NCBI RefSeq assembly: GCF_001899075.1
Contig: NZ_MKVA01000008.1
Location: forward strand, 124,001 to 188,000
Direction: 5' to 3'
Source of the DNA: Devosia sp. 67-54
Lineage (GTDB): Bacteria > Pseudomonadota > Alphaproteobacteria > Rhizobiales > Devosiaceae
DNA: 64,000 nt
Shown: positions 23,617-45,288 of the stretch, piece after piece
How the letters are laid out: the number at the start of each line of letters is the position of its first letter
Numbering within the stretch: the first letter of the stretch is position 1
Notes under the pieces: model-generated
What the model saw: only the letters and a program-made list of their open reading frames with translations
The model's database searches: none
Told to the model about the DNA's origin: nothing
Made by a program: the position numbers and the translations under genes

Positions 23617-23628
23617 TACAGATCTGTA
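23617..23628. promoter_or_regulatory. Shared palindromic box 1
   Basis: TACAGATCTGTA, a perfect 12-bp palindrome, 85 bp upstream of the PepSY protein ATG. The identical 12-mer recurs at 33980-33991. Confidence 0.65.
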
Positions 23629-23713
23629 TGCGCACTGACAGTCTGCTGCGAGATCGGAGACGTAGCTCTTGCGCAACCGGGCACTCCCGCCTGGTGCGTA
23701 AGGAGAAATATCG

Positions 23714-24103
23714 ATGCGTATCAAACTCGCCGCCGTCCTGGCGTTCCTGTTGGCCGCGGCTGCAAGCTCGGCGTCGTTCGCCGTCACCTCGAGCAGCGCC
23801 GAGTCGTCGGCCTTGTCGGGCGCGACTGTCTCGGTGGCAGAGGCCGTGGCCGCAGTTGAAGCCAATGGCCAAGGCAAGGTCGTCGAGTTGGCCCTCGCCG
23901 GATCGGCGTCTGCACCAGTGTACAACGTCACCGTTCAGATGCCCGATGGTACGGAGAGCAATTTCACCGTCGATGCGAGGACCGGCAAGGTGGCGGCCAG
24001 CACGGACGTTGCCGACAATCAGGGAAATGCCGCCGATCCGGTGGAGCCCGAAGACGGCAACGGGGACGACAGCGCCGAAAGCGGTGAGAGCGGTTCAAAC
24101 TAA
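23714..24103 (+). CDS. Exported PepSY-domain protein
   Basis: A 129-residue protein with a signal peptide (hydrophobic run ending near SASFA) and a single PepSY-like module (VSVAEAVAAVEANGQGKVVELALAG, then YNVTVQMPDG and FTVDARTGKVAAS). The tail is acidic. AGGAG lies 8 nt before the ATG. Small PepSY proteins often accompany QseBC/PmrAB-type two-component systems, and two such systems follow here. It may tune sensor or protease activity in the periplasm; that is inference. The palindromic box upstream implies it belongs to the island regulon. Confidence 0.75.
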   Translation: MRIKLAAVLAFLLAAAASSASFAVTSSSAESSALSGATVSVAEAVAAVEANGQGKVVELALAGSASAPVYNVTVQMPDGTESNFTVDARTGKVAASTDVADNQGNAADPVEPEDGNGDDSAESGESGSN

Positions 24104-24108
24104 GCGAA

Positions 24109-24139
24109 AGGCCCGGAGACCCCACGGTTTTTCGGGCCT
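24109..24139 (+). terminator. Possible terminator after the PepSY gene
   Basis: AGGCCCG and CGGGCCT form a 7-bp stem around a long loop that includes TTTTT. It is followed immediately by the second palindromic box. The long loop makes this uncertain. Confidence 0.35.
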
Positions 24140-24142
24140 CTC

Positions 24143-24156
24143 TTACAGAACTGTAA
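24143..24156. promoter_or_regulatory. Shared palindromic box 2
   Basis: TTACAG-AA-CTGTAA, perfect half-sites with a 2-nt spacer, 86 bp upstream of the ATG at 24243, which opens the run of six genes to 29559. Confidence 0.65.
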
Positions 24157-24242
24157 TCCGGCTGCCAGTCGGTTGTGAGGTGGCCATCCTAACCCCGAAC
24201 TGCGCCTGTCGCGGACAGACGCCCAACCCTTCGGATTCCCAC

Positions 24243-24632
24243 ATGAAGCAAGTCTTCCTCGCGATCGTGCTGATCGCGGTTCCGGTCGCGATGTTCAGCG
24301 GCTACGAGCTCTACACCGCCAACACCGCCGTCGCTGCTGAACGCGGCCTGGGCGACCTTTCGAACTTCAAGGCGATCATCGCTGATGTCCAGGCGCTCGT
24401 GGACAAGGGTGACATCGCTGGCGGGGCCAGGCGTATCACCGATTATGAGACCGCTTGGGACGGTGCCGAGACGGCGATCCGCCCGCTCAACCAGACGCAG
24501 TGGGGCAACATCGACTCCGCCAACGACGCGGCCTTCAGCGCCATCCGCAAGAGCAAGCCCGATCCGGCCGCCGTCAAGGATGCGCTCGCGACGCTGATGG
24601 CGACGCTCAATGATCCCAGCAAGGCCCCGTGA
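24243..24632 (+). CDS. Small exported protein of unknown function
   Basis: A 129-residue protein. The N-terminus is a signal peptide or anchor (MKQVFLAIVLIAVPVAMFSGY), and the rest is a helical domain (RGLGDLSNFKAIIADVQALV ... ARRITDYETAWDGAETAIRP). The ATG was chosen over an upstream frame because it gives the signal peptide and follows the palindromic box. It is 9 bp before the COG4705-type gene, so the two are likely a functional pair. No family function recognised. Confidence 0.7.
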   Translation: MKQVFLAIVLIAVPVAMFSGYELYTANTAVAAERGLGDLSNFKAIIADVQALVDKGDIAGGARRITDYETAWDGAETAIRPLNQTQWGNIDSANDAAFSAIRKSKPDPAAVKDALATLMATLNDPSKAP

Positions 24633-24641
24633 GGACAAACC

Positions 24642-25427
24642 ATGACCGCAACCACCTTTCCCGGCCAGTCCGCCTATAATCGCGTTCCACGCGTGACACC
24701 TGACTTCTGGCTCATCAAGCTCATGGCCGTGACCATGGGCGAAACCGCTGCCGACTATCTCAGCGTGCAGCTCGGTCTCGGCCTGACCACTACCTCCCTA
24801 TTGATGGCGGCGGTGCTGATCGCTGCACTCGTCTGGCAGTTCTGGCAGAAGCGCTACGTGCCGGCGCCGTATTGGCTGGCCGTCGTTCTGATCAGCATCG
24901 TCGGTACGCTGATCACCGATAATCTGGTCGACAATTTTGGCGTACCGCTCATCGTGACCACGATTACCTTCTCGATCCTACTTGCGATCACCTTCGTTGT
25001 CTGGTGGCGGATCGAGGGAACGCTCTCGATCCACACGGTCATCACGACACGCCGGGAGGCATTCTACTGGCTCGCAATCCTGTTCACTTTTGCACTCGGC
25101 ACAGCCGCCGGCGACCTGGTCGCGGAGCAGTTCTCGCTTGGCTATCTTGCCACCGGGATATTGTTCGGCATGATCATCGCATCGCTGGCGATCGGATATT
25201 TCTTCCTGAAGCTCGATCCAATCCTGGGCTTCTGGCTGGTCTACATCCTGACTCGCCCGCTTGGGGCTTCGTTCGGCGATCTTCTGTCGCAACCACGGCA
25301 GTACGGTGGGTTGGGCCTCGGAACGATCGTGACCAGCGCGATGTTCTTGCTGATCATCGTGTGTACAGTGGTCTATATGTCGATCCGTAACCGGGACGGC
25401 GAAGAAGTTCTCGAGGCGGCGCGATAA
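24642..25427 (+). CDS. COG4705-type integral membrane protein, copy 1
   Basis: A 261-residue inner-membrane protein made of four related units. Each has an aromatic-Trp pair, then Gly, then Asp at fixed spacing: W23/G33/D38, W78/G88/D93, W143/G153/D158 and W198/G208/D213 (pattern [FY]W-x9-G-x4-D). The function of the COG4705 group is not established. A second copy of equal length lies at 40635-41420. It is embedded between a small exported protein and a response regulator, suggesting an envelope role under that system. Confidence 0.8.
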   Translation: MTATTFPGQSAYNRVPRVTPDFWLIKLMAVTMGETAADYLSVQLGLGLTTTSLLMAAVLIAALVWQFWQKRYVPAPYWLAVVLISIVGTLITDNLVDNFGVPLIVTTITFSILLAITFVVWWRIEGTLSIHTVITTRREAFYWLAILFTFALGTAAGDLVAEQFSLGYLATGILFGMIIASLAIGYFFLKLDPILGFWLVYILTRPLGASFGDLLSQPRQYGGLGLGTIVTSAMFLLIIVCTVVYMSIRNRDGEEVLEAAR

Positions 25428-25441
25428 CGCGTAGGTCATCA

Positions 25442-26113
25442 ATGCGCATCATGGTGGTCGAGGACGACCAGAGAACGGCGGAATATGTACGCAACGGACT
25501 GACGGAGGCCGGTCACGTCGTCGACAGCTTGACGGACGGCCGGGATGCCCTGACGCACGGCAGCCGGATGAAGTTCGACGTGATCGTGGTCGATCGAATG
25601 CTCCCGGGCCTCGATGGTCTGTCTCTGGTGAAGGCGCTTCGTGCGACGGGGGTCTCGACCCCCGTTATCTTTTTGACTGCGGTGAATGGCGTTGACGATC
25701 GAGTGGAAGGCCTCGAATCCGGCGGTGACGATTACCTGGTCAAGCCCTTCGCGTTCTCCGAGTTGCTGGCCCGGGTCAACGCGCTGGCGCGACGCCCACC
25801 GCAACAGGTGGAAAAGACGACACTGCAGATCGGTGCTCTCGAACTCGACCTCGTTCGCCGCACCTGCCGGCGCGAGGGTAAGCCGATCGATCTCTTGCCG
25901 CGCGAATACGCGCTGCTCGAATATCTGATGCGCAACGAGGGCCGGGTGGTGACCCGTACCATGCTTCTGGAACGCGTTTGGGACTTCCATTTCGACCCGC
26001 AGACCAGCGTCGTCGAAACCCATATCAGTCGGTTGCGGGCCAAGATCGACCGACCGTACGGGCAGCAACTACTGCACACCGTCCGCAATACGGGCTACGT
26101 GATGCATGACTAG
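25442..26113 (+). CDS. OmpR-family response regulator 1
   Basis: A 223-residue regulator: receiver with acidic pair VVEDDQ, phospho-acceptor Asp51 in VVDRMLPGLDG and Lys in YLVKPFAF, then a winged-helix output domain (LLPREYALLEYLMRNEGRVV ... VETHISRLRAKI). This is the CusR/QseB-like branch. The downstream kinase gene starts inside its last codons (8-bp overlap), so the pair is coupled. OmpR-family proteins bind direct repeats spaced about 11 bp, which fits the TGTAAG sites in this island. Confidence 0.92.
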   Translation: MRIMVVEDDQRTAEYVRNGLTEAGHVVDSLTDGRDALTHGSRMKFDVIVVDRMLPGLDGLSLVKALRATGVSTPVIFLTAVNGVDDRVEGLESGGDDYLVKPFAFSELLARVNALARRPPQQVEKTTLQIGALELDLVRRTCRREGKPIDLLPREYALLEYLMRNEGRVVTRTMLLERVWDFHFDPQTSVVETHISRLRAKIDRPYGQQLLHTVRNTGYVMHD

Positions 26114-27476
26114 CCTAGGGCTGCTCAAGAGCACGCCGTTCCGTGTCGCGCTCATCCTGGGCGCGACATTTTTCGTAGCCATGTTGATTGCCGGTTTCGC
26201 GGCGTTTGAGCTCATCGGCCGCGAACTCGAATCCAGGATGGATCAGACCATCGGCGACACGTTCCGGGTTATCGCCGAGTCCTATGGCGACAGCGACCAG
26301 GCTGATCTCATCGATTCGGTCACCAGCCATTCGAGGTCGACCCTCAATCACGATCAGATATATGGCCTCATCTCGGAGACGGGCGCCCGTCTTGCGGGTG
26401 ATGTTCAGAGTTTGCCCAAGGCTAACGGATGGACGACGCAGACCGGACAGGAGCTCGGTCTTGCCGATGCCCAGTCGGAGCGGTTTCGGGTCTTTGTCGG
26501 GCAAGCCGGACTCAACCGCTTGCTCGTGGGCAGCAGTTTTGCGGAGACCCGCGAAGTCGGTCGACTGGCGCTGTTGATGCTGGCCTGTGCCGGGCTTGTG
26601 ACATTCGTGATCGTGGTGGGTGCAGGAACCGTTTTAGCCACTCGGGCGCAAAAGCGGATCGATGTCATCGCGGCTACGATGACCAGAATCGGTCAGGGCG
26701 AGCTTGATGCCAGGATCCCGCCCGGACGGCGCAACGATGATATCGATCAGCTCACCCGACAGGTGAATGCCGCACTCGATCGGCTATCCGCATTGGTCGA
26801 GGGGATGCGGCAGGTCAGCGTCAACATCGCGCACGATTTAAAGACGCCGCTCAACCGCCTCGCGATCAGCGTCGAGTCGGCAACGCTCGCGAGCGATCGT
26901 GGAGAAAACGTCTCCGACCAGCTGGCTCAGGTTGAATTCGAAATCCATCGTATCAACTCGACGTTCGATGCCTTGCTCAGGATTGCTCAGATCGAGGCGG
27001 GCGCCCGGCGGGCGCGCTTTGTCCGCGTCCGGATGGGGGACATTCTCGACCGCATCGCTGATGCCTATGGCGATGTGGCCGATGAGGAACACCAGACTCT
27101 AGTCGTACGACGCCCTCCGGCGATGCCGGACATCGATGGCGACCAGGAACTGCTGATCCAGCTGAGCGCCAATCTCATCGAAAACTCGATCCGGCACTGC
27201 CCGCCCGGAACTCTGATCGAGGTCACCGGGGAGGTTCAGAACAGGCAGGTCATCCTGACCTTTGCTGACAACGGCCCGGGTATTCCGCCGGATGAGTACG
27301 ACAAAGTCTTTCAGCGGCTCTATCGGTTGGAGAAGAGCCGAACAACGCCCGGCAGCGGTTTGGGCCTCAGCCTGGTCAGGGCGATCGCCGATTTGCACGG
27401 TGCCAGCATTGTTGTCAGCGACCGCGCGCCGGGTCTCGTCGTAACGGTGGCTTTTCCGACCGTCGGGATCGTCTAG
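26106..27476 (+). CDS. Sensor histidine kinase 1
   Basis: A 456-residue membrane kinase: first span near residues 13-36, a periplasmic sensor of about 120 residues, second span near 155-180, HAMP, dimerisation/phospho-acceptor helix with His in VNIAHDLKTPLNRL (about residue 243), and an ATPase domain with N box LIENSIRHC, G1 DNGPGIP and G2 GSGLGLSLV. Partner of response regulator 1. The sensor region has no recognisable ligand motif. Confidence 0.92.
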   Translation: MTSLGLLKSTPFRVALILGATFFVAMLIAGFAAFELIGRELESRMDQTIGDTFRVIAESYGDSDQADLIDSVTSHSRSTLNHDQIYGLISETGARLAGDVQSLPKANGWTTQTGQELGLADAQSERFRVFVGQAGLNRLLVGSSFAETREVGRLALLMLACAGLVTFVIVVGAGTVLATRAQKRIDVIAATMTRIGQGELDARIPPGRRNDDIDQLTRQVNAALDRLSALVEGMRQVSVNIAHDLKTPLNRLAISVESATLASDRGENVSDQLAQVEFEIHRINSTFDALLRIAQIEAGARRARFVRVRMGDILDRIADAYGDVADEEHQTLVVRRPPAMPDIDGDQELLIQLSANLIENSIRHCPPGTLIEVTGEVQNRQVILTFADNGPGIPPDEYDKVFQRLYRLEKSRTTPGSGLGLSLVRAIADLHGASIVVSDRAPGLVVTVAFPTVGIV

Positions 27477-27514
27477 CAGTATTCGGCGGCAGCCTCTCGA
27501 TGTAGGCTCTGCGG

Positions 27515-28183
27515 GTGAGACTCCTGCTGGTTGAAGACAATTCATCGCTGGCCACGTGGCTCGCCAAGCTTTTGCAGGGCGAGAACTATGCTGTGGACGC
27601 TCTTACGGACGCGGAAAGCGTCATCGCCGGCACGGACCTGGGCCAATACGATATCGCGCTCGTCGACCTCGGTCTTCCAGGGATGAGCGGCCTCGATCTG
27701 ATCCGGGAGATCCGCCGTCATCAACTCTCCCTGCCCATCCTGATCCTCACCGCCCGGAATGATCTGAAGAGCCGGGTCGAGGGCCTCAATCTGGGTGCCG
27801 ACGACTATCTGACCAAACCTTTCGAAATCGAGGAACTCGAAGCCCGCATGCGTGCCTTGCTGCGGCGCAGTCATGCACCGGCGCGACGCGAAATCAGCAT
27901 TGGTCCCTTGACCTTCGATCAGACCGGCCGGGCTTTTCGCCTCGGCGAGACCGACCTGGCGCTATCGCCGCGCGAGGCCGCCGTGCTTGAGGCGCTGATG
28001 CGCCGGCAGGGCCAGCCGGTGAGCAAGGAACGGTTGCTCGAGAGCACTTACGGTTTCGACGACGATGTCAATCTGAGCGCCGTGGAAGTCATCGTTCATC
28101 GCCTCCGCAAACGGCTGGAAGGATCATCGGTCGTGATCGCGACGCTACGTGGGCTGGGCTATTTGCTGAGGCTGCAGGAATGA
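27515..28183 (+). CDS. OmpR-family response regulator 2 (TctD/QseB-like)
   Basis: A 222-residue regulator with a GTG start. Receiver: LLVEDNSS, phospho-acceptor Asp in ALVDLGLPGMSG, Lys in YLTKPFE. Output domain: LSPREAAVLEALMRRQGQPVS and VEVIVHRLRKRLEG. It follows kinase 1 by 38 bp and overlaps kinase 2 by 4 bp (ATGA), so two complete two-component systems lie head to tail. Confidence 0.92.
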   Translation: MRLLLVEDNSSLATWLAKLLQGENYAVDALTDAESVIAGTDLGQYDIALVDLGLPGMSGLDLIREIRRHQLSLPILILTARNDLKSRVEGLNLGADDYLTKPFEIEELEARMRALLRRSHAPARREISIGPLTFDQTGRAFRLGETDLALSPREAAVLEALMRRQGQPVSKERLLESTYGFDDDVNLSAVEVIVHRLRKRLEGSSVVIATLRGLGYLLRLQE

Positions 28184-29559
28184 AAAGCGGCAGCATCCGG
28201 GTCAATCTTCTGGCCTGGCTGATCATTCCGGGGCTGCTGGTGCTCGGCATCGGAGCCTGGTTGTCCTACGAGCAGGCGTTTCGCCTGTCCAACATCGTCA
28301 CAGACCAGCAGTTGACTGCCTCAGCGCGGATGATCGCCGAGGAGGTCGCCTATTCCGACGACTCGCTGGTCGTGACGATTCCGCCGGCCGCCCTTGAGCT
28401 ATTCGCCTCGGAAAGCCATGATGAAGTCGCCTATGCCGTCACCGATTCAGCCGGCAATCTCATCGCCGGCTATCCCGGGCTCGACACGCCGACGAAGACT
28501 GGCCGCGGCAATTTGCTGTTTTTCGAGACGGTCTTTCGTGACGAAGAGCCGATGCGGGCTGTGGACTTCCTGCAGACGGTCGTCACCCCGACGGGTGGCG
28601 TGATCGTGCGGGTTTCGGTCGGCGAGACCCTCAAGGCGCGCAACGCGCTGGTCACGACCTTGTGGATGCGCGGCTTTTTGGAGCAAGGAGCCCTGGTGGT
28701 CGCCGGCGCGATCTCGATCTGGTTCGGGATCAGCCGCGAACTGGCGCCGCTGCTGCGCCTGCGCCAGGAGGTACGCGACCGGCGGCCGGACCAGTTCGAG
28801 CCCTTCGACGCGGACAGGGTGCAGACCGAAATCCGCCCGCTCGTTCAGGCGCTCAACGCCCACATGGACCGGCTGCGGCAACAGCTCGAGCGGCAGCGGC
28901 GTTTCCTCGATAGCGCCGCGCACCAATTGCGAACGCCACTGGCGGTGATCAAGACTCAGGTCAACTACGCGCTCCGCTCACGGGAGCGGTCCGAGATCGA
29001 CCTCGCCTTGACGGAGGTCGATTCGAACCTGACTTCGATGGCCCGTATGACCAGCCAGCTCCTCACACTGGGCGGTGTCGATCACAACCGAACAGCGCTC
29101 CAATCGGAAACGATCGATCTGAGCGATATCGCGCATCAGGTGGTTCTCGAGGCGGCCAGTCGGGCCCTCGATGCCGGCATCGAGATGGCGTTCGATTCCG
29201 ACGGCCCCGCCGGCGTCGTCGGGTCGGACGTCATGCTTGTCGAGCTCGTGACCAATCTGGTCGAGAACATCATTGCCCATGCGGGTGCAGGAGCCGAGGC
29301 GACAATCGCCGTCCGCAGGGGCGTCCGAGACGTGATCCTGCGGGTCGAAGATACCGGCGAGGGAGCTACGGATGAGGACCGAACGGGGCTGCTGCAGAGA
29401 TTTCGGCGTGGCAGGAATGCTCGGCCAGGGGGTAGTGGGCTCGGCCTGTCGATCGTGTCGGAGGTCGTGGAATCGATGGGTGGGACAATAGACCTTCCAG
29501 CGCCCCGTGCAGGCAAAGGATTTGCGGTTGAGGTTCGCCTCCCCGCCGCGGTGAGCTAG
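28180..29559 (+). CDS. Sensor histidine kinase 2 (TctE/QseC-like)
   Basis: A 459-residue membrane kinase: N-terminal span (LLAWLIIPGLLVLGIGAWLS), a periplasmic 2CSK-like sensor, a second span near residue 165, the ISRELAPLLRLRQEV linker typical of TctE/QseC, His in SAAHQLRTPLAVI (about residue 248), N box LVENIIAHA, G2 GSGLGLSIVSEV. Its stop codon shares the palindrome CTAG with the stop of the convergent substrate-binding gene, leaving no room for a terminator between them. Confidence 0.92.
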   Translation: MKSGSIRVNLLAWLIIPGLLVLGIGAWLSYEQAFRLSNIVTDQQLTASARMIAEEVAYSDDSLVVTIPPAALELFASESHDEVAYAVTDSAGNLIAGYPGLDTPTKTGRGNLLFFETVFRDEEPMRAVDFLQTVVTPTGGVIVRVSVGETLKARNALVTTLWMRGFLEQGALVVAGAISIWFGISRELAPLLRLRQEVRDRRPDQFEPFDADRVQTEIRPLVQALNAHMDRLRQQLERQRRFLDSAAHQLRTPLAVIKTQVNYALRSRERSEIDLALTEVDSNLTSMARMTSQLLTLGGVDHNRTALQSETIDLSDIAHQVVLEAASRALDAGIEMAFDSDGPAGVVGSDVMLVELVTNLVENIIAHAGAGAEATIAVRRGVRDVILRVEDTGEGATDEDRTGLLQRFRRGRNARPGGSGLGLSIVSEVVESMGGTIDLPAPRAGKGFAVEVRLPAAVS

Positions 29560-30554: not shown

Positions 30555-30667
30555 GCATCCTCCCCTATCAGAGTCCGCGCAGTGTGGGCGGGGCGATCGG
30601 CGGCCCCACGCCGTTTCATTCTCCAGTCATGCCAGCCGAGCGACAGATTTGCCAGCGGACAAATGGC

Positions 30668-30690
30668 GGGGCGGCCGACAGGGCCGCCCC
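30668..30690 (-). terminator. Stem-loop between the two substrate-binding genes
   Basis: GGGGCGGCC and GGCCGCCCC form a 9-bp stem with a 5-nt loop just after the first substrate-binding gene. It lacks a strong U-tract, so it may act as an mRNA-stabilising hairpin or a partial terminator. Confidence 0.5.
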
Positions 30691-33708: not shown

Positions 33709-33725
33709 TGTAAGGCGGCTGTAAG
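33709..33725 (+). promoter_or_regulatory. TGTAAG direct-repeat site A
   Basis: TGTAAG at 33709-33714 and again at 33720-33725, an 11-bp period with a 5-nt spacer (GCGGC). Architecture is that of an OmpR-family binding site. The target gene is uncertain: the importer start is 206 bp to the left, the coupled operon 333 bp to the right. Confidence 0.55.
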
Positions 33726-33979
33726 CTGAAGAGCAGATGCCTACTCCTGCTGGGATTGGGCGGACCCACCAGCGCTCCAGTCATTGCTTCATGGGGCGTT
33801 GGGCTCGACTGCAGCTGACCTTGGGTCTTTCATCGGTCCGAGGTGGGGACGCTGCTGGCGTGGCGCCGGCGAGCATGTTTTTCGTCGATGCCAACGTCCC
33901 TTGGCTCGTATCGCAGGAACGCAATTCCACTCGTGAACCGTAGTGTACGATCGCTGGCCGCATGACCAAGGTTGGATCA

Positions 33980-33991
33980 TACAGATCTGTA
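33980..33991. promoter_or_regulatory. Shared palindromic box 3
   Basis: TACAGATCTGTA, identical to box 1, followed by AG so that the right half reads CTGTAAG. It lies 66 bp upstream of the ATG at 34058, first gene of the six-gene coupled operon. Confidence 0.65.
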
Positions 33992-34057
33992 AGAAACCGG
34001 ACATACGGACGTAAGACCAGGGGCCGAGCCTGGGCTTCCAGAACAGGAGCCCGGAAC

Positions 34058-34627
34058 ATGACATCTCGTAGCCTCGCATTCGCCCTGGCACTCTCCGCTG
34101 GTGCAGCAATTTCGTTGCCGGCAGTTTCAATTGCGGTCGAAAAGCCCGTCGCTTCCGAGAAGAACCCACCCGGCGACATTCCCGACACCCAGGTCTTCGT
34201 CGACTATCAGGGAGCCGGGGTGACCATGAAAGTCCCGGAGGGCTGGGCCCGTGCTGACGAGGCCAATGGCGCGATCTTTTCCGACAAATACAATCGCGTC
34301 GAGCTGACGACGCAGACGACCGCGTCGTCCCCCTCGGTGTCGTCCGTGACCAGTCACGAGGCCAAAGATCTCGTCGCCGGCGGGCGGGCCGTGAAGATCA
34401 TCGCCGTGAAGGAGGTCAAGCTCGACGGAGGTAGGGCAGTACGCGTCGACTATTCGGCCAATTCGGAGCCTAACGCCGTGACGAGCAAGCAGATCCGGCT
34501 CGAAGAGGTTCGCTTTTACCTGCGGGGCCCGAGCGGCAAGCTGGCCGTGCTCGATATGTCGGCGCCGAACGGGGCGGACAACGTCGACCAGTGGAACCTG
34601 ATGTCCAACTCCCTGCGGGTGCAATGA
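34058..34627 (+). CDS. Exported protein, PsbP-like, first gene of a coupled operon
   Basis: A 189-residue protein with a signal peptide (LAFALALSAGAAISLPAVSIA). The mature domain reads GVTMKVPEGWARADEANGAIFSD and ends with a repeated strand-helix pattern, resembling the PsbP/Mog1 fold of small envelope proteins. Its stop overlaps the next gene (ATGA). The link to an FtsX-type transporter suggests a periplasmic partner. Fold assignment is tentative. Confidence 0.65.
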   Translation: MTSRSLAFALALSAGAAISLPAVSIAVEKPVASEKNPPGDIPDTQVFVDYQGAGVTMKVPEGWARADEANGAIFSDKYNRVELTTQTTASSPSVSSVTSHEAKDLVAGGRAVKIIAVKEVKLDGGRAVRVDYSANSEPNAVTSKQIRLEEVRFYLRGPSGKLAVLDMSAPNGADNVDQWNLMSNSLRVQ

Positions 34628-35286
34628 GCGGGGTGGTGCTGGAGGCGTCAGATCTCTACCGCTTCTATCATGTGGGCGAGGAGGAAATCTTTGCCCTGCG
34701 CGGCGTCAGTCTCCGACTGCGAAGCGGCGAATTGGTTGCGGTGACCGGGCCGTCGGGCAGCGGAAAGTCGACCCTGCTCAACTGCGTCGCAGGCCTCGAC
34801 GATCCGGACGGCGGCTACGTCGCAATCACCGGCGAACGGATCAGTCGCGCACCAGAGCGCGTGCGCGCGCGGCTGCGAGCCGAACGCGTGGGCATCATGA
34901 TGCAGTCCGGCAACCTCTTTCCGCACCTCGCGGTGATCGACAATCTCCGGCTTCAACAGCGGCTTTCGGGCAAGAAGCACTTGCCAGCGCCGGAAGCGCT
35001 GCTGGACCGGGTGGGCTTGGGCCATAGAGTGCAGGCTCTCCCAGAAACACTTTCGGGCGGCGAAGCCGCGCGTGCGGGTCTCGCGGTAGCCCTGTCGACG
35101 CTCCCGAGTGTCCTGATCTGCGATGAACCGACCGGTGAGGTCGATGAAGCCAACGAGACCGCCATCATTTCACTGCTCAAGCGCGCGCAGGCCGATGGCG
35201 CAGCAATTCTGATTGCCACCCACAGTCCTTCTTTGGCCGGTAAGGCGGACCGTATTCTCGAGCTCAACGACGGAGCGGTCGCGTGA
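34624..35286 (+). CDS. ABC transporter ATPase 1 of the FtsX-type system
   Basis: A 220-residue LolD/MacB-like ATPase: Walker A GPSGSGKSTLLN, Q-loop MMQSGNLFPHL, signature LSGGEAARAGLAVAL, Walker B VLICDEPTGEVDE, H-loop ATHSP. The signature is unusual in that the usual QxQR after LSGG is replaced by EAAR. The ATG overlaps the preceding stop by 4 bp. Confidence 0.9.
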   Translation: MSGVVLEASDLYRFYHVGEEEIFALRGVSLRLRSGELVAVTGPSGSGKSTLLNCVAGLDDPDGGYVAITGERISRAPERVRARLRAERVGIMMQSGNLFPHLAVIDNLRLQQRLSGKKHLPAPEALLDRVGLGHRVQALPETLSGGEAARAGLAVALSTLPSVLICDEPTGEVDEANETAIISLLKRAQADGAAILIATHSPSLAGKADRILELNDGAVA

Positions 35287-35921
35287 CGGCGCTCGTGCAG
35301 TTCGATCATGTCCGCAAGGATTATCGTGGTGCGTCGGCGCCCGCGCTCATTGACGTGACCTTTGACATCTTCGAGCGCGACCGCATTGCGCTGATGGGAC
35401 GCTCAGGGAGCGGCAAGTCCACGGTTCTCAACCTGATCGCCGGTTTGGACGAAGCGACGGCGGGAGAGGTGAGATGGCCTCTCTACGGGCATCCTGTGGC
35501 CACCGATATTGGACTGGCCTTCCAGTCACCCAGCCTGATTCCATGGCTGACCGTCGAAGAGAACGTGCGGCTGCCGCTGCTCATCTCGACGGTAACTCGG
35601 CCGGGCGACGTCCTGGGCCTTTTGTCCCGACTTGGCCTGAGTGATCTCGCCTCGAAACTGCCGTCAGAACTCTCCGGCGGCCAGGCGCAGCGTGTTGCGT
35701 TGGCCCGAGCGATGGTGACAACGCCGCGCTTGCTGCTTGCCGACGAGCCGTCCGGCCAACTCGATCATGAAACCGCCAATCGAGTGCTGGATATGCTCGA
35801 CGGCTGGGCGGACGATTCCGGAACAGCCCTGGTTATTGCCACCCATGATCCGATGGTGGCTGCCTCCACGCAACGATGCTGGACGCTTGACCACGGGCAT
35901 CTTGCGGAGATCCCGGTATGA
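35283..35921 (+). CDS. ABC transporter ATPase 2 of the FtsX-type system
   Basis: A 212-residue ATPase with GTG start overlapping the previous stop (GTGA). Walker A GRSGSGKSTVLN, Q-loop AFQSPSLIPWL, signature LSGGQAQRVALARAM, Walker B LLLADEPSGQLD, H-loop ATHDP. Two non-identical ATPases beside one long permease imply a heteromeric engine. Canonical signature here contrasts with the altered one in ATPase 1. Confidence 0.9.
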   Translation: MTALVQFDHVRKDYRGASAPALIDVTFDIFERDRIALMGRSGSGKSTVLNLIAGLDEATAGEVRWPLYGHPVATDIGLAFQSPSLIPWLTVEENVRLPLLISTVTRPGDVLGLLSRLGLSDLASKLPSELSGGQAQRVALARAMVTTPRLLLADEPSGQLDHETANRVLDMLDGWADDSGTALVIATHDPMVAASTQRCWTLDHGHLAEIPV

Positions 35922-38557: not shown

Positions 38558-39423
38558 ACAACGCCTTGTGCCTCAATCTCAGCTCGGCGGCAGGTCGAGC
38601 GATATTTTCACGCCGGGCGGCTATTGCGGCGACGGTCCTCATGGCGATGTCGGGCCTGCATGCTACCCCGGCGACAGCAGCCTCGGTCTTCCTCGAGGAT
38701 CAGACCTGGACCGAGTTGCGCGACGAGATCAAGGCAGGCACGACGACGATCATTGTGCCGATCGGCGGGGTGGAGCAAAGCGGCCCGGCGATGGCGCTCG
38801 GCAAGCACGACGCGCGGGTCAAGGCGCTGGCGCAAAAGATTGCCGAGCAACTCGGCAACGCGTTGGTGGCACCCGTGGTTTCGTACGTACCCGAGGGGTC
38901 GATCAGCCCGCCCACGGCGCATATGAAATTTCCCGGCACGATCACCATCAGCGATACCACCTTCAAGGCGCTGCTCGACTCCTCGGCGCGCAGCTTCAAG
39001 CTGCACGGCTTCAAGACCATCGTGCTGATCGGCGATCATGGCGGCTATCAGGCCGACGAAAGCGCCGTCGCCGACAACCTCAATGCCGAGTGGGCAAAGA
39101 CACGAGTTCGGGTCTTTGCCGACCGAAACTACTACAAAGTCACGCAGACCGGCTACATCGACAAGCTTCTCGCAGCCGGCGTCAAGCGGACCGAGATTGG
39201 CACGCACGCCGCACTGGCCGACACGTCCCTGATGCTGGCGGTAGACCCCGCGATGGTCCGGCAGGATCGGCTCGCGGCATCGCCGGCCCTCGGCCCCGCC
39301 GACGGGGTCTATGGCGGCGATCCATCGCGATCATCTGCGGCTTTCGGTCAACTTGGCGTCGATCTGATCGTCAGCACCACCGTCGCCGATATCCGCGCCT
39401 TTATCGGCAGGCAGCCAAAATGA
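38554..39423 (+). CDS. Exported creatininase-family hydrolase, divergent metal site
   Basis: A 289-residue protein with a GTG start and an N-terminal signal that includes a twin-arginine-like FSRRAAIAATVLMA. The creatininase fold is recognisable (IVPIGGVEQSGPAMALGKHD, VLIGDHGGYQADE, THAALADTSLMLAVDP). Compared with creatininase, the EQHGPH metal-ligand histidine is Ser, and the HAGExETS glutamates are Leu and Asp. It may therefore bind metal differently or act on another amide. Creatininase relatives include the peptide-cleaving MftE. Coupled to the permease and to the beta-propeller gene. Confidence 0.8.
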   Translation: MNNALCLNLSSAAGRAIFSRRAAIAATVLMAMSGLHATPATAASVFLEDQTWTELRDEIKAGTTTIIVPIGGVEQSGPAMALGKHDARVKALAQKIAEQLGNALVAPVVSYVPEGSISPPTAHMKFPGTITISDTTFKALLDSSARSFKLHGFKTIVLIGDHGGYQADESAVADNLNAEWAKTRVRVFADRNYYKVTQTGYIDKLLAAGVKRTEIGTHAALADTSLMLAVDPAMVRQDRLAASPALGPADGVYGGDPSRSSAAFGQLGVDLIVSTTVADIRAFIGRQPK

Positions 39424-40634
39424 AGCTCGTGGCAGCAACGCTTGTCACCGCGCTGGTGAGTATTGGACTGGCTGCCGCCGTACCGGCGGCTGACGGTGGA
39501 CCTGGCAGCGCCATGACCATGCGGGGCGTGGATGCGCCGTCGATCGCGCCGAGCGGTTCGAGCGCCGCCCCGCCGACTCCTGAACCTCCCGCGGCCATCA
39601 ACATCTACAGCCAGATCGGGGTCGGCCATCTAAGCTGGGCCGTGGTCGCCGACCTGCCTCGCGTGTACGTGCCGAACCACTCGGCCAATACGGTGTCGGT
39701 CATCGATCCGTCAACGCTCAAGGTGGTGAATACATTCAAGGTCGGTGTGCGGCCACAGCACGTCATCCCGTCCTGGGATTTGACCACGCTGTGGGTCGCC
39801 AACAATGGGCGCGGCAACCGCAACGGCAGCCTGACGCCGATCGATCCGACAACCGGCAAACCGGGGCTACCCGTCAAGGTGCCAGATCCCTACAACATGT
39901 ACTTCATGCCCGACGGCAGCGCCGCCATCGTCGTCGACGAGGCGCTGCGGCGCCTCGACCTACGCGACCCCAAAACGATGGCGCTCGAGGCGCAGATTCC
40001 GACGCCGACCTGTCACGGCATCAACCATGCCGACTTCGCCGCCGACGGCTCCTATGCGATCTTCACCTGCGAGTTCAATGGCGCATTGCTCAAGGTCGAT
40101 TTGCGCAATCGAGAGGTGCTCGGCACGCTCGCCTTACCCAAAATGTCGATGCCGCAGGACATTCGTCTGTCTCCCGATGGCCAGGTGTTCTACGTTGCCG
40201 ACATGGCCGCGGACGGCGTCCACCTGGTCAATGGGGAAAGCTTCACAATTGCCGGCTTCATCCCGACCGGTCCCGGCGCGCACGGGCTGACCGTCAGCCG
40301 CGACGGAACCAAACTCTACGTGTCCAACCGTGGCTCGCACAGCATGCATCGGGCCAGCAGACACGGACCCGGTAGTGTCAGTGTGATCGACTTCGCCACC
40401 AGAGCAGTCGTTGCACAGTGGCCGATCCCAGGCGGCGGCAGCCCCGACATGGGCAATGTCAGCGCCGACGGCAAGCAGTTGTGGTTGTCCGGACGGTTCG
40501 ACAACGAGGTCTACATGTTCGACACCACCAGTGGGGCCGTCAGCAAAGTGCCGGTTGGGCGCGAGCCGCACGGCCTCGCGGTGTGGCCCCAGCCGGGCCG
40601 CTATTCGCTTGGTCACACCGGAAACATGCGGTGA
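39420..40634 (+). CDS. Exported YVTN-type beta-propeller protein
   Basis: A 404-residue protein with a signal peptide (LVAATLVTALVSIGLAAAVP) and repeated blades of the YVTN type: RVYVPNHSANTVSVIDPSTL, TTLWVANNGRGNRNGSLTPI, QVFYVADMAADGVHLV, TKLYVSNRGSHS and QLWLSGRFDNEVYMFDTTSG. Such propellers bind partners or ligands in the periplasm and are often near redox enzymes. It ends the six-gene operon; its ATG overlaps the creatininase stop. Confidence 0.88.
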   Translation: MKLVAATLVTALVSIGLAAAVPAADGGPGSAMTMRGVDAPSIAPSGSSAAPPTPEPPAAINIYSQIGVGHLSWAVVADLPRVYVPNHSANTVSVIDPSTLKVVNTFKVGVRPQHVIPSWDLTTLWVANNGRGNRNGSLTPIDPTTGKPGLPVKVPDPYNMYFMPDGSAAIVVDEALRRLDLRDPKTMALEAQIPTPTCHGINHADFAADGSYAIFTCEFNGALLKVDLRNREVLGTLALPKMSMPQDIRLSPDGQVFYVADMAADGVHLVNGESFTIAGFIPTGPGAHGLTVSRDGTKLYVSNRGSHSMHRASRHGPGSVSVIDFATRAVVAQWPIPGGGSPDMGNVSADGKQLWLSGRFDNEVYMFDTTSGAVSKVPVGREPHGLAVWPQPGRYSLGHTGNMR

Positions 40635-41420
40635 TCAATTTCGGTCCAGGCGAGCGGAGATGGCAGCCGCATCGAACGTGCTGAGGGCGACAATGCCCCA
40701 GGCCACGACAACGAGTGCCAGACTGATGAAACCCGTGCCGAGGCCCACCCCGCCGCGTTCCGGTCCGACTCCCAGCCAGTCGGCAAAGGACGCGCCAAGC
40801 GGCCGTGTCAGGATATAGGCGATCCAGAACGTCGAAATCTCACTGGCGCCCGCCCAGCGGCGTACGACGAGAGGGACCAGGAACGCCGCCAGAAACATGA
40901 CGCCTGAAACGAAATAGCCGAGACCGAGCGTGGTGGCCGTCATATCACCGGCCGCGGTGCCTAAAGCGAACGTAGCGAGGACCGTCAACCAGTAAAAGCT
41001 CTCGCGCCGTCTCGTGTAAATACTGTGAATGGAAAGCGTCTTCTCGACCCACCACCAACAAGCGAACACGATAAGGAGGCCACCGAGAAATACGACCGTG
41101 GAAACCAGATAAGGAACACCCAACACAACGTGAATGACATCCGCCACCATCGTCCCAAATACGGCAACTAGAGAAACGGCGATCCAGTAGCGCCATTTGG
41201 AGAAGACGGGGATGATCCATTGCACAACGAGCGCGACGGTGAGGGCGACGCCACTAAGCGCGATCACCAACGGGGGATCAAAAGCCCGGACAAGATAATC
41301 CGAGGTTGTCTCGCCGAGGCCGGTCGTCAAGACCTTCACGACCCAGAATGTTAGGGCTACTTCCGGGACCTTGGCTGTCTGCACGACGGCATAGCCTACG
41401 GTCTCGGCGGTATCGGTCAT
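40635..41420 (-). CDS. COG4705-type integral membrane protein, copy 2
   Basis: A 261-residue paralogue of the protein at 24642-25427 with the same four units at W26/D41, W79/D94, W144/D159 and W199/D214, each Trp-to-Asp distance being 15. The segments FYWLTVLATFALGTAAGD and LTRPLGASFAD are almost identical to copy 1. The ATG at 41420 gives the same length as copy 1 and follows palindromic box 4. It lies convergent with the coupled operon, starting its stop right after the propeller stop. Confidence 0.82.
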   Translation of the reverse strand: MTDTAETVGYAVVQTAKVPEVALTFWVVKVLTTGLGETTSDYLVRAFDPPLVIALSGVALTVALVVQWIIPVFSKWRYWIAVSLVAVFGTMVADVIHVVLGVPYLVSTVVFLGGLLIVFACWWWVEKTLSIHSIYTRRRESFYWLTVLATFALGTAAGDMTATTLGLGYFVSGVMFLAAFLVPLVVRRWAGASEISTFWIAYILTRPLGASFADWLGVGPERGGVGLGTGFISLALVVVAWGIVALSTFDAAAISARLDRN

Positions 41421-41473
41421 GGTACTCCCCTTCACAGGGCGTGGCGTTACCACGGCGCGGCGGCGTGGTCATT

Positions 41474-41487
41474 TTACAGTGTTGTAA
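41474..41487. promoter_or_regulatory. Shared palindromic box 4
   Basis: TTACAG-TG-TTGTAA, 2-nt spacer, one mismatch between half-sites. It lies 53 bp upstream of the ATG of COG4705 copy 2 on the minus strand. Confidence 0.6.
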
Positions 41488-41539
41488 GGTCACGTCCCGA
41501 CGTTGTCTCGGGCCCGCCGTTAACTTCCGATAACCCCTC

Positions 41540-41567
41540 TGTAAGGCGGGTGTAAGTCCCATGTAAG
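41540..41567 (+). promoter_or_regulatory. TGTAAG direct-repeat site B (three copies)
   Basis: TGTAAG at 41540, 41551 and 41562, three exact copies at an 11-bp period with 5-nt spacers. It lies 57 bp upstream of the micropeptide ATG at 41625 and serves the spermidine-synthase-like gene. Confidence 0.75.
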
Positions 41568-41624
41568 ACGAAGCGCGCACACCAGGGCCGACGTGAGACT
41601 TTCGAACAAGCGTTGGAGACCATC

Positions 41625-41687
41625 ATGGGCATCTATGGCGCACTCAGCACCGTCGCCGGGTTGCTGACGCTGGTTTTGATCCTGTAG
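41625..41687 (+). CDS. 20-residue single-span micropeptide
   Basis: ATG with GGAG 6 nt upstream, coding for a 20-residue peptide that is one hydrophobic helix after a short MGIYGALS start. The stop codon overlaps a possible GTG start of the next gene by one base. It sits directly behind the triple TGTAAG site. It could be a structural micropeptide of the membrane enzyme downstream or a translated leader. Confidence 0.5.
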   Translation: MGIYGALSTVAGLLTLVLIL

Positions 41688-41707
41688 TGCTGGTCAAGAG
41701 GAGCAGC

Positions 41708-44344
41708 ATGCCTGCAACGCCGACCGCTCCGACGATTGCCATCACCGCGCGTACGCCGCTCTATCTGGCAGTGGGGCTGCTGGCGGGCGCCGTGATCGCG
41801 CTCCAGATTGCTATCATGCGGGTCTTCGCGGTGGGGAGCTGGGCGCATTTTGGTTCGCTCGTGGTCAGCCTGGCGCTGCTCGGCTTCGGCCTGTCGAGCG
41901 TCGTCATCTTCGTCGTACGCGGCTGGTTCGACCGGCATTGGCGCGGCGCCGCCGGCACCGCGCTGCTGTTGCTCGGACCGCTCGCGGTCGCCGCCAATCT
42001 CACCGCGCAGGCGGTGCCGTTCAACGCTATCTTCCTCGTCTCCGATCCGAGCCAGGTGTGGCGGCTTGCGGCGAACTTCGTGCTGTACCTACTGCCGTTC
42101 CTTGCCGGCGCGATGGTCCTTGGAATTGTGTTCCTGAGGAACCGCGAAGGCTTCGGCCGGGTGTACTTTGCCGATCTCGTCGGCTCCGGCGTCAGCGGCT
42201 TCGTCATTCTGATGGCGATGTACCTGCTTCCGCCCGAGCAACTGATCGCCGTGCCGCTGACGCTCTGGATGCTGAGTGCCATCCTCTGGTTCGGCCTGAG
42301 CGGGCACGTCTTCGGCAGCCTTGTCTCGTCGGTGCTCGGTATCGCCTGTGTCGGCGCCTATCTCTGGCTGCCGGGGTTAACCGGCATCCCGGACATTGCG
42401 ACATCGCAATACAAGGGCGTCGCCTATGCGCGGAACTTTCCGGACGGGCACCGCATCTATCGCTCGATCTCGCCGTTCGGCGACCTGCAGATCTACGCCA
42501 GCTCCTACATGCACTTCTCGCCGGGCCTGTCAGACAACGCGGCGTTCAACCTACCGGAGCTGCCGGGCAACTCGTTCGTCGCCATGTACATCGATGGCGA
42601 GGGACCGGAAGGCATCATGCATGAGCCGCCGGAGGAGGCGAATAACTACTTCCACTACCTGCCGATGGCGTTTCCCTACGTGCTGCGCAGCACGCCCAAT
42701 GCGTTCGTCGTGCAGTTCGGCGGCGGCATCTCGACCATGGCGGCACTGCATTCCGGTGCGAGGAGCGTCACCATCGCCGAGAGCAACCCGGCGGTGCTGC
42801 AGGCCTTCGACGATCCGGCGATCCGCGACGCCAGCAGCAGCATCCTCAGCGATCCGCGCGTGAAGGTGGTCGACTACGACGGCCGGCTTTATCTGAAGCA
42901 CACCATCAACCGCTACGACGTGATCGACCTGAGCCTCGCGGACTCGGTGGGTCTCTCCAATCCCGGCGGCTTCGCCATTACTGAGAAGTATGCGTACACG
43001 CGCGAGGCGATGGTCGACTACATGCGGGCGCTGAGCGACGACGGCATCCTGTCGATCACGGCGTGGAACAAGGAAGAGCCGCCCAAGTCGATCCTGAAAC
43101 TCTATTCTACCCTGGCCGATGCGGCCAGGCAGTTCGACCCGACGACCGCGTCGCGCTCGATCTTCGTCGCCTCGGGCTATCTGTCGACAACGACGCTCCT
43201 CTACCGCAAAGGCGGCTTCACCGACGCGGAGATCGACAAGCTGCGCAAATACACGAGCTCGATGTCGTGGGACGAGATCTACTCGCCCGGCTTTGCCGTC
43301 GACGACAGCGTGACGCCGACTATCCTCGCGCAATACGAAGACTCGATCTTCGGCAGCGGCGATGCCGACGCGGCCAACCCGACGACGACCACGACGTCGT
43401 CCGAAGTCGCGGACCCGACGCTCGACGTGCCGGACAGCGCCGACAACACCGGCACGGCCGAACCCGCGACCACGCTCGGCCGCCTGTTCTGGTACTGGAC
43501 ACTCGGGGGCGGCGCCATCGAGCACGCGCGCGACTACGTCTTCGACACGCGCCCGCTGACCAACGCTCGCCCGTACTTTGCCGCCTACGAGAAGTTCGAC
43601 GACCTGCCGCGGACCCTCGACCGGCTCGATCTGTTCCAGGACGATTGGGGTTACCTGTTGCTCTGGGCGACGCTGGGCATCGCTGCGGCGACCGCCACGG
43701 TGCTGATCGGGCTGCCGATGCTGATTGGCTGGCGCAGCGTGTTCGCGCGGGCGCCGGGCAAGCTCGGCACCATCGCCTACTTCGCAGCGCTGGGCCTCGG
43801 CTACATCACGGTCGAGGTCGGGCTGATCAGCCGCTTCGCCGTGGCGCTCGCCAACCCGACCATCTCGGCCTCGGTGCTGATTTCCGGCATGCTCGTCTTC
43901 TCCGGCATCGGCAGCTACTTCTCCGACCGCATCGTCGACGGCGCGAAAGTCATCCTGCCGCTGATCCTCGTCGGCATCGCGGTGCTGCTTTTCGCCTACG
44001 GGCTGTTCCTCGATCCGGTGCTCGACAAGATCGGCGCCTTGGCGTTCCCGCTGCGCCTGCCATGCTGCTTCGTGCTGGTTGCGCCGCCGGCGCTTCTCAT
44101 GGGCTACCCTATGGCGACGGCGATGGCGTGGCTTGCGCGGCTGGGCAAGGACCACATGTTCGTCTGGGCGTGGGGGATCAACGGCTGCTTCTCGGTCGTT
44201 GGCGCCGCGGCAGTGCCCATCATCGCCACAACCTTCGACCTTCCGGCGGTGCTCAAGGTCAGTGCGGCTGCTTACCTCATAGCCATCCCCGCATTTCTCG
44301 CGGTACTGCAGCCAGCGAGCAGGGCGAGCACGAGCATCTATTAA
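41708..44344 (+). CDS. Membrane-embedded spermidine-synthase-like protein
   Basis: An 878-residue protein from ATG 41708 (AGAGGAG 4 nt upstream; a GTG at 41687 is possible). About six membrane spans occupy the first 220 residues, then a soluble SAM/dcSAM-binding Rossmann domain (VVQFGGGISTMAALHSGARS, TIAESNPAV) and another group of spans at the C-terminus. This layout is that of the large bacterial spermidine-synthase-like membrane proteins; whether it makes polyamines is unproven. The aspartate-rich insert near residues 555-590 (TTTTTSSEVADPTLD) is low complexity. Confidence 0.8.
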   Translation: MPATPTAPTIAITARTPLYLAVGLLAGAVIALQIAIMRVFAVGSWAHFGSLVVSLALLGFGLSSVVIFVVRGWFDRHWRGAAGTALLLLGPLAVAANLTAQAVPFNAIFLVSDPSQVWRLAANFVLYLLPFLAGAMVLGIVFLRNREGFGRVYFADLVGSGVSGFVILMAMYLLPPEQLIAVPLTLWMLSAILWFGLSGHVFGSLVSSVLGIACVGAYLWLPGLTGIPDIATSQYKGVAYARNFPDGHRIYRSISPFGDLQIYASSYMHFSPGLSDNAAFNLPELPGNSFVAMYIDGEGPEGIMHEPPEEANNYFHYLPMAFPYVLRSTPNAFVVQFGGGISTMAALHSGARSVTIAESNPAVLQAFDDPAIRDASSSILSDPRVKVVDYDGRLYLKHTINRYDVIDLSLADSVGLSNPGGFAITEKYAYTREAMVDYMRALSDDGILSITAWNKEEPPKSILKLYSTLADAARQFDPTTASRSIFVASGYLSTTTLLYRKGGFTDAEIDKLRKYTSSMSWDEIYSPGFAVDDSVTPTILAQYEDSIFGSGDADAANPTTTTTSSEVADPTLDVPDSADNTGTAEPATTLGRLFWYWTLGGGAIEHARDYVFDTRPLTNARPYFAAYEKFDDLPRTLDRLDLFQDDWGYLLLWATLGIAAATATVLIGLPMLIGWRSVFARAPGKLGTIAYFAALGLGYITVEVGLISRFAVALANPTISASVLISGMLVFSGIGSYFSDRIVDGAKVILPLILVGIAVLLFAYGLFLDPVLDKIGALAFPLRLPCCFVLVAPPALLMGYPMATAMAWLARLGKDHMFVWAWGINGCFSVVGAAAVPIIATTFDLPAVLKVSAAAYLIAIPAFLAVLQPASRASTSIY

Positions 44345-45210
44345 CCGGAGTGCGTACCCACGATCTTGTCGCCCTCGAGCTTGGTGAACGGCACGAAGTT
44401 GACGATCGCGCCGCCGTAAATGTCGGACCGCGTCACGGTCACGGCTCCCGCCGTGTCGGTGCGCTTGGTGATCTTGAGCACGTGCTGCGCTCCGGGCGGT
44501 CCGATCGGGATGACCATGAGCCCATTGGGCTTGAGCTGCTTGAGCAGATCGGGCGGCACATGGTCGATACCGCACGTCACAATGATCTTGTCGAAGGGCG
44601 CAGCGTCCGCCCAGCCATAGTAGCCATCGGCATTCTGGCGCTGAATCGCCTTATACTCGGTGTACCCCTCGGCGATCAGGTCGGCGTAGACGCCGCCGGT
44701 ACGCTCGAACAGCGGCTTGATGATCTCGATCGAATAGACTTGGTCGGTAAGGTTCGAGAGATAGGCCGATTGATAACCGGATCCTGTGCCGATCTCGAGC
44801 ACGCGCTCGCCCTTCTGTACATCGATCGAATTGGTCATCCGGGCCACCGAATGTGGACCGGTGATCGTCACGCCAAAGCCGATGTCGAGATAGTGCACCT
44901 GATAGGCGCGGGTCAGATTGGGCGCGGTTACGAACCGTTCGCGCGGCACCATTAGGAAGGCTCGCTTGTTGCGAGTGTCCCAGACGTCGTGATGTGCGAT
45001 CAACTGCAGGAAGCGGTCGTAGCGCTCGCCCAGATAGCCCGGATCCTCCCCTCGGTTCTTGACCATCCAATCGATGAAGGCCTGCCTATCGTCGAAGGGC
45101 GGGCTGGCAGTCCAGTCGTAGGGCGTTGGAACAGAAGCCAAGGCGGCGTGAGGGAGGGCGGCTCCTGCGAGTGAAGCTGCTAGAACCCCAATGGCTGTGC
45201 GACGACGCAT
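44341..45210 (-). CDS. Exported protein-L-isoaspartate O-methyltransferase-like protein
   Basis: A 289-residue protein with an N-terminal signal containing RRRTAIGVLAASLAGAALP (Tat-like). The methyltransferase core has motif I VLEIGTGSGYQSAYLS and the PCMT pattern GPHSVARM and ERFVTAPN. PCMT repairs isoaspartyl damage using SAM, which is normally cytoplasmic, so an exported form is odd. Its stop shares TTAA with the stop of the convergent spermidine-synthase-like gene. Box 5 is upstream. Confidence 0.82.
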   Translation of the reverse strand: MRRRTAIGVLAASLAGAALPHAALASVPTPYDWTASPPFDDRQAFIDWMVKNRGEDPGYLGERYDRFLQLIAHHDVWDTRNKRAFLMVPRERFVTAPNLTRAYQVHYLDIGFGVTITGPHSVARMTNSIDVQKGERVLEIGTGSGYQSAYLSNLTDQVYSIEIIKPLFERTGGVYADLIAEGYTEYKAIQRQNADGYYGWADAAPFDKIIVTCGIDHVPPDLLKQLKPNGLMVIPIGPPGAQHVLKITKRTDTAGAVTVTRSDIYGGAIVNFVPFTKLEGDKIVGTHSG

Positions 45211-45274
45211 GGCGGCTCTCCCCTTGCAAGTCGCCAGGTTATGCAGTGCTCCTCACAGGAGCCTTTCGGCAAGC

Positions 45275-45288
45275 TTACAGCGCTGTAT
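45275..45288. promoter_or_regulatory. Shared palindromic box 5
   Basis: TTACAG-CG-CTGTAT; the inner TACAGCGCTGTA is a perfect palindrome. It lies 64 bp upstream of the methyltransferase ATG on the minus strand. The rest of the interval 45211-45437 shows no gene. Confidence 0.62.

Follow-up and report, generated by a model that had tools for sequence, protein, structure and literature searches.

Operators built as inverted repeats have been described for several bacterial regulators. In the available text on Cupriavidus metallidurans, the OmpR-type regulator AgrR recognizes the AgrR box, an inverted repeat ATKACA-N4-TGTMAT (6-4-6), at several promoters with autoregulation, and some of these operators carry extra in-phase direct half-sites; the same source states that the copper regulators PcoR/CopR bind an inverted repeat (PMC7380067). 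The LciR element in the copper island of Legionella, ATTACAA-N2-TTGTAAT, comes with two short conserved elements before the -10 and is described, in the accessible part of that report, only from the acquired island (PMC6989116). In Escherichia coli, the targets of HprR include the periplasmic repair gene msrP (PMC9302797, available portion). We confirmed TTACAAAATTGTAA beside E. coli hprR/hiuH, with a TTACA-N4-TGTAA core (L179:4372), and TGACAATTTTGTCA beside cusR/cusC, which is a TGACA-N4-TGTCA version (L178:2514). At both, a -10-like TA is seen by eye 33-35 bases past the palindrome.

The window, that is, the whole analysed stretch of 64,000 nucleotides from Devosia sp. 67-54, corresponds to C8:124001-188000 in a genome of 4,213,429 bases and 12 contigs. 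At 22-24 kb, its G+C content of about 67% gives way to about 62%, an ORF that looks integrase-like by eye lies at 62547 near two tRNA-Val genes, and orthologs (at least 65% identity) of the response regulator RR1 are confined to 12 of 121 family genomes. An acquired island is therefore plausible, and the stretch is probably acquired DNA. The genes to be considered are listed below.

23714-24103, plus strand: exported PepSY-domain protein, 129 aa, predicted target (PF03413, E=5.9e-10)
24243-24632, plus strand: leading gene of the RR1 operon, small exported protein of 129 aa, predicted helical bundle
24642-25427, plus strand: DUF347 (COG4705) membrane protein, copy 1 (PF03988, E=2.8e-56)
25442-26113, plus strand: RR1, OmpR-type response regulator, CusR/CopR-class-like, predicted palindrome binder (NCBIfam, structure and co-occurrence)
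26106-27476, plus strand: HK1, sensor kinase beside RR1 (HAMP, HisKA, HATPase_c)
27515-29559, plus strand: RR2 (TctD-like) and HK2 (2CSK_N), after a 38 bp gap behind HK1, not the predicted binder
34058-40634, plus strand: six-gene operon, predicted target, encoding an exported protein, two ABC ATPases, an FtsX-like permease, a creatininase-like protein and a sixth gene at the 3' end
40635-41420, minus strand: DUF347 (COG4705) membrane protein, copy 2, possible target (PF03988, E=2.7e-42)
44341-45210, minus strand: PCMT-like (protein-L-isoaspartate) methyltransferase, predicted target, with a signal-like N terminus by eye (PF01135, E=7.5e-40)

The two proteins previously assigned to COG4705 do match Pfam DUF347 (PF03988). 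The small exported protein matches no Pfam or NCBIfam family at E<=0.001; its AlphaFold model has a mean pLDDT of 82.9, with confident helices at residues 40-123, and a fold search against the PDB returned generic helical bundles alone, none at E<=0.001. In many species (L031-L093) a second domain, with its end near ERCNADDD, is joined to this protein; in Mesorhizobium (e.g., L085) that domain is an 85-aa protein by itself. As for the PCMT-like methyltransferase at 44341-45210, its export would require S-adenosylmethionine outside the cytoplasm.

A preliminary description of this DNA had reported the palindrome TTACAG-N2-CTGTAA before five start codons, and a pattern search of the window found all five copies where they had been placed. 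With no more than two mismatches, TTACAGNNCTGTAA occurs five times in the window against a mean of 0.20 in shuffled sequence, and none of 100 shuffles contained at least five. All five sites share the motif at this tolerance, but the perfect 14-mer is present solely at 24143, with one mismatch each at 33979, 41474 and 45275 and two at 23616. The sites at 23617 and 33980 have the same sequence, TACAGATCTGTA, as had been claimed. The inner 12-mer TACAGNNCTGTA (TACAG-N2-CTGTA) is exact at four window sites and has one core mismatch at 41474, where it reads TACAGTGTTGTA. The palindromes precede the start codons, as chosen by us, by 84 bp (PepSY protein), 86 bp (small exported protein), 65 bp (six-gene operon), 53 bp (DUF347 copy 2) and 64 bp (methyltransferase), in line with the 50-90 bp given before; the target units lie on both strands, three on the plus and two on the minus strand. 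That the sites avoid coding sequence is true for the accepted genes, but those at 23616, 24143 and 33979 fall within some mechanical ORFs, which include 23541..24632 and 33962..34627.

The exact 12-mer occurs at four places in the whole genome, all four inside the island (reversed control, 1), and the chance of finding four of four exact cores in one 21.7 kb stretch, 0.5% of the genome, is about 5e-7. The 14-mer with no more than two mismatches occurs at seven places, five of them in the island (reversed control, 46), and TTACANNNNTGTAA with no more than one mismatch at eight places, four of them in the island (control, 13). Near-matches of the short motif thus exist off the island, at or below the control level, and the exact core has none there. 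Equal density of the motif elsewhere in the genome, the finding that had been named as fatal to a common regulator, was not observed in the exact-core and extended-pattern scans.

Downstream of the palindrome, the aligned sites from other families and from our own family have a common layout: G[AC][CA]AG follows after 7 bases, GT[GA]A 6 further on and the -10 TA 11 more. Two models of this layout were used. The downstream-only model is based on 21 other-family sites and gives p values against 50,000 random positions; the 49-base promoter model was trained, without any window sequence, on the 21 other-family sites (mostly Rhodobacterales) and 10 own-family sites, with the L171 site excluded. 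Among 127,904 positions in the window, four palindrome sites rank at the top of the 49-base model with 31-44 bits, followed by 41531 (22.6) and then by 8.3. The sites are listed with their ranks and, for the four promoters, with the downstream-only result toward the gene.

23616-23664, plus strand: RR1-type promoter before PepSY; palindrome CTACAGATCTGTAT 23616-23629, GACAG 23637-23641, GCGA 23648-23651, TA (-10) 23663-23664; p=1e-4, rank 3
24143-24193, plus strand: RR1-type promoter, best site; palindrome TTACAGAACTGTAA 24143-24156, GCCAG 24164-24168, GTGA 24175-24178, TAAC (-10) 24190-24193; 0/50,000, rank 1
33979-34028, plus strand: RR1-type promoter before the six-gene operon; palindrome ATACAGATCTGTAA 33979-33992, GACAT 34000-34004, GTAA 34011-34014, no TA at the expected -10 place; p=4.6e-4, rank 4
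45238-45288, minus strand: RR1-type promoter before the exported methyltransferase; palindrome ATACAGCGCTGTAA 45288-45275, GAAAG 45267-45263, GTGA 45256-45253, TAAC (-10) 45241-45238; p=6e-5, rank 2
41474-41487, no strand assigned: fifth palindrome TTACAGTGTTGTAA, between DUF347 copy 2 (minus) and a spermidine-synthase-like protein (plus)
41531-41567, plus strand: degenerate RR1-type site, right palindrome half alone; score 22.6, rank 5; overlaps the triple repeat TGTAAG-N5-TGTAAG-N5-TGTAAG

On the opposite strand, the same four promoter sites give downstream-only p values of at least 0.26. A fixed distance to the -10 with elements between is therefore found at four of the five window sites (33979 without the -10 TA). 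It is absent at 41474, where p is 0.47 on the minus strand (DUF347 side) and 0.087 on the plus strand and the full-model scores are 1.7 and 2.9; since the palindrome is good but the promoter layout is missing, 41474 counts as a candidate binding site. In our reading, the short downstream elements look like imperfect copies of the right half-site spaced by 11 bases, as at AgrR operators. An extended 35-base pattern, TACANNNNTGTANNNNNNNNGNMANNNNNNNGNRA, which was designed after viewing the four window sites and to fit them, has with no more than one mismatch a single genome match beyond those four, C11:789743 (reversed control, 1). This off-island near-match (L096 1501-1514, own genome C11:789765) has the right layout and a model score of 21.0, and lies upstream of a 113-aa exported-looking protein; RR1 or a paralog may have a chromosomal target here.

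The same motif was then sought in 80 loci around DUF347 relatives. Of the spacings x from 0 to 11 in TTACA-Nx-TGTAA, x=4 alone gives exact copies, 25 in all; within one mismatch it gives 72, and no other spacing gives more than 9. Inverted TTACA/TGTAA halves at a spacing of exactly 4 are thus common to these relatives and to the window sites (0-2 mismatches). Of 30 arrangements of the half-site letters at spacing 4, TTACA leads the exact counts with 25 against 3 for the runner-up. Over whole loci the exact count alone is telling, since the order ATCAT equals TTACA within one mismatch (72 each) but is exact once against 25 times.

The site also accompanies RR1. Within 400 bp upstream, a copy with no more than one mismatch is present at 22 of 45 loci with RR1 within 5 kb and at 5 of 34 without (Fisher p=0.0018; L017, with under 101 upstream bases, left out), and the best other letter order of the 30 reaches 1 of 45 loci with RR1. 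In Rhodobacterales the palindrome mostly stands some 95 bases upstream of the small exported protein, with a divergently oriented RR1 gene on its other side. Based on the best five matches per locus and on RR1 anywhere in the stretch, promoters of at least 12 bits occur outside the training set at 23 of 26 loci with RR1 and 3 of 31 without (Fisher p=1e-9); L015 and L039, whose contigs overlap own-family training contigs, are removed from this count, and with them kept it is 24/27 versus 4/32. Three of these 27 RR1 loci (L040, L062 and L071) have no match of 12 bits. RR1 is present at 20 of the 21 training loci, L032 having none in its stretch; further stretches with sites and without RR1 include L042 (two exact palindromes, best 11.6 bits), L054, L056 and L066. 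In other species, RR1-type sites also precede genes for cytochrome b561, a PAP2 phosphatase, an ABC ATPase and a methyltransferase.

Within the family, a site precedes the RR1 unit or the gene of the exported protein at 9 of 14 RR1 loci. The other five, L167, L170, L172, L173 and L174, have none within one mismatch, the contig of L167 ending 8 bases before DUF347. The downstream-only p is below 0.03 at 10 of 11 own-family sites, and the L171 site misfits the layout toward RR1 (p=0.19). Two of the predicted targets have parallels: the PepSY gene is likewise preceded by an RR1-type site in L161 and L163, and the orthologous exported protein of the six-gene operon has one upstream in L162 and L033. 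Counts of the short motif over whole family genomes separate only modestly (29 forward and 19 control matches in 12 RR1 genomes, 155 and 352 in 109 others). The extended pattern is sharper, with matches in 6 of 12 RR1 genomes and 8 of 109 others (p=5e-4), one of the six (G043) having its match away from its RR1 genes; in four of the eight (G012, G025, G031 and G044) the site is less than 2 kb from a more distant CusR-class regulator.

Judged from its sequence, TTACA-N4-TGTAA is the operator class of the response regulators CusR, CopR, AgrR and HprR, and RR1 is of a matching type. Its best NCBIfam score is 255.8 bits for TIGR01387 (cztR_silR_copR), ahead of HprR (225.2) and CusR (209.7); since the curated cut-off is 279.2, we label it CusR/CopR-class-like rather than a TIGR01387 member. 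It has the architecture of that family, a receiver and an OmpR-type winged helix, and its partner kinase has HAMP-HisKA-HATPase. The solved structure nearest to its DNA-binding domain is PcoR (2jzy), with the recognition helix VIDVAVRRLR against VVETHISRLR in RR1. The residues of HK1 before 185 match no solved structure at E<=0.001. A palindrome of the BlaI/CopY or LexA-like type was considered and dropped, given the TTACA-N4-TGTAA core of the comparison and the link to an OmpR-type regulator.

The palindrome set very probably represents a real regulon. With high confidence we take the palindrome as the RR1 operator, through which RR1 would activate its own operon, the PepSY gene, the six-gene operon and the PCMT-like methyltransferase gene. 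In the proposed mechanism, HK1 would sense a cell-envelope signal and phosphorylate RR1, which would dimerise on TTACA-N4-TGTAA with its centre about 40 bases upstream of the -10 TA; extra half-site contacts between the palindrome and the -10 would be made, and transcription would be activated. From 24143, RR1 would switch on its own operon (small exported protein, DUF347, RR1 and HK1, with RR2-HK2 possibly forming the tail), and it would also switch on PepSY, the exported-protein/ABC/FtsX operon and the exported methyltransferase. The binding by RR1, the activation rather than repression and the positive autoregulation are what we infer from these data. As the likely recognition signal precedes four or five gene groups of the island, a single switch probably turns them on together. 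The proposal that one regulator governs these scattered units is well supported at four sites, with RR1 and not RR2 or RR3 as the most likely regulator; it does not extend safely to 41474, which is without the layout, and has to make room for a second, RR3-linked operator described below.

Could another regulator read these sites? A chromosomal paralog of the CusR/CopR class (C11:469969, 65% identical; C5:1162758; C3:388797) might do so, alone or with RR1. Other TIGR01387-like regulators exist in the genome, the recognition helix of the C11 paralog is identical to that of RR1 (VVETHISRLR), and a non-palindromic match of 18.0 bits lies near the C5 paralog (L176:11979). However, none of the three own-genome paralogs (55-65% identical) has a palindrome within one mismatch in 19.5 kb each, the extended pattern is represented elsewhere in the genome by the one C11 site with one mismatch alone, and the sites accompany RR1 in other species. 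We regard a paralog as an improbable reader.

The direct repeat TGTAAG-N5-TGTAAG is a second island signal, beyond the preliminary description. It is exact at three places in the genome, all in the window (33709, 41540 and 41551), with a one-mismatch copy at 53849 and a control of 2 within one mismatch. The relaxed form given below also fits 53817 on the minus strand of the window.

33709-33725, plus strand: direct repeat TGTAAG-N5-TGTAAG, upstream of an ABC transporter operon (minus)
53817-53865, both strands: mirror pair of direct repeats at the divergent promoter of RR3 and an FMN-binding gene, CGTCAGGTTCATGTCAG on minus 53817-53833 and CGTAAGGTTGGTGTAAG on plus 53849-53865
53904-54566, plus strand: RR3, PmrA/QseB-like response regulator, predicted direct-repeat binder (NCBIfam and ortholog comparison)

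RR3 orthologs were compared in 19 of 28 other family genomes that had a match. Strict TGTAAG repeats within two mismatches precede 5 of the 19, and at three mismatches the letter order TAAGGT is no worse than TGTAAG (10 versus 9). The relaxed pattern [CGT][GT]T[AC]AG-N5-[CT]GT[AC]AG, drawn from the very sequences on which it was tested, matches upstream of 18 of the 19 genes when oriented toward RR3 and of 16 when oriented the other way; with every other spacing from 0 to 12, or with the pattern reversed, the count is 0. Since the relaxed repeat precedes 18 of 19 orthologs, and at the N5 spacing alone, we assign the direct repeats to RR3, which, on these sequence comparisons, probably runs a second set of island promoters. 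With a second operator type linked to RR3, the island as a whole is probably not controlled by a single regulator.

These data also bear on whether RR2 or RR3 might bind the palindrome itself. Both are encoded in the same island, the RR3 half-site TGT[AC]AG is similar to the right half of the palindrome, and L042, which has no RR1 on its 8.7 kb contig, combines two exact palindromes with an RR3-like gene (61%). Yet 18 of 19 RR3 orthologs are preceded by their own direct repeat, RR2 is TctD-like, and of the 15 loci among 80 with an RR3-like gene and no RR1, L066 alone reaches 12 bits (14.9), L042 coming near with 11.6, so that binding by either seems very unlikely. At many loci of Rhizobium/Ochrobactrum type in L014-L030, the neighbour of DUF347 and the ABC/FtsX genes is an RR3-like regulator (42-44% identical) in place of RR1, and the palindrome is lacking, as if the regulator of this gene set had been swapped. 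The near-matches with one or two mismatches elsewhere in the genome, at or below the control level, would fit an origin of the palindromes by chance or from a decayed repeat element. This reading is hardly credible: the exact copies are clustered, the downstream layout, the window ranking and the co-occurrence with RR1 contradict it, and the flanks are alike only where promoter positions are conserved in other species, which disfavours copied repeats.

Returning to RR1 as the reader of the palindrome, we may tentatively suggest, as a possibility with the odds against it, that RR1 and RR3 read one half-site word, TGT[AC]AG, RR1 in inverted pairs supplemented by in-phase halves and RR3 as an 11-base direct repeat. 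The two would meet in the intergenic region 41474-41567 and jointly control a programme of envelope repair or metal stress comprising DUF347, a periplasmic methyltransferase and ABC/FtsX, and not metal efflux.

In the accessible text on Frankia, DUF347 is a proposed metal transporter, in operons with undecaprenyl phosphatase that are up-regulated by lead (PMC4531530). Together with the target genes in the island and those in other species, this proposal points to an envelope or metal stress programme. UzcR of Caulobacter was considered as a lead and dropped, the available part of PMC12864828 yielding neither a motif sequence nor a link to DUF347. Among the titles and abstract beginnings covered, which exclude most subscription journals, we recognized no paper on this regulon. 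A regulator, an operator and a promoter layout can now be named for a functionally obscure set, DUF347/COG4705 with its small exported partner, which is seen here in Rhizobiales, Rhodobacterales and some Gammaproteobacteria. A simple reporter built on this regulon could be screened for the signal, which would give a firm lead on the purpose of these genes.

Compared with the described systems, the island motif shares with the AgrR box an inverted repeat of the same half-site and spacing, but the AgrR regulon, in the available text, serves silver and copper (PMC7380067), whereas no efflux-pump family was found among the 20 island proteins scanned with Pfam. Similarly, there is no copper-resistance operon among these 20 proteins as in PcoR/CopR systems, and the recognition helix residues of RR1 differ. 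The E. coli HprR/CusR box CATTACAAAATTGTAATG has the half-site and spacing of the island palindromes (PMC9302797, available portion), although the E. coli promoters fit the downstream model weakly or not at all (hiuH p=0.057, cusR p=0.050, cusC p=0.42) and the target genes differ. For LciR, whose element agrees with the island palindromes in half-site and spacing, one target gene is given in the accessible text (PMC6989116), in contrast to the four or five units of the RR1 island, which include DUF347, PepSY, ABC/FtsX and methyltransferase genes. The mechanism is usual for its class; the novelty lies in the content of the regulon.
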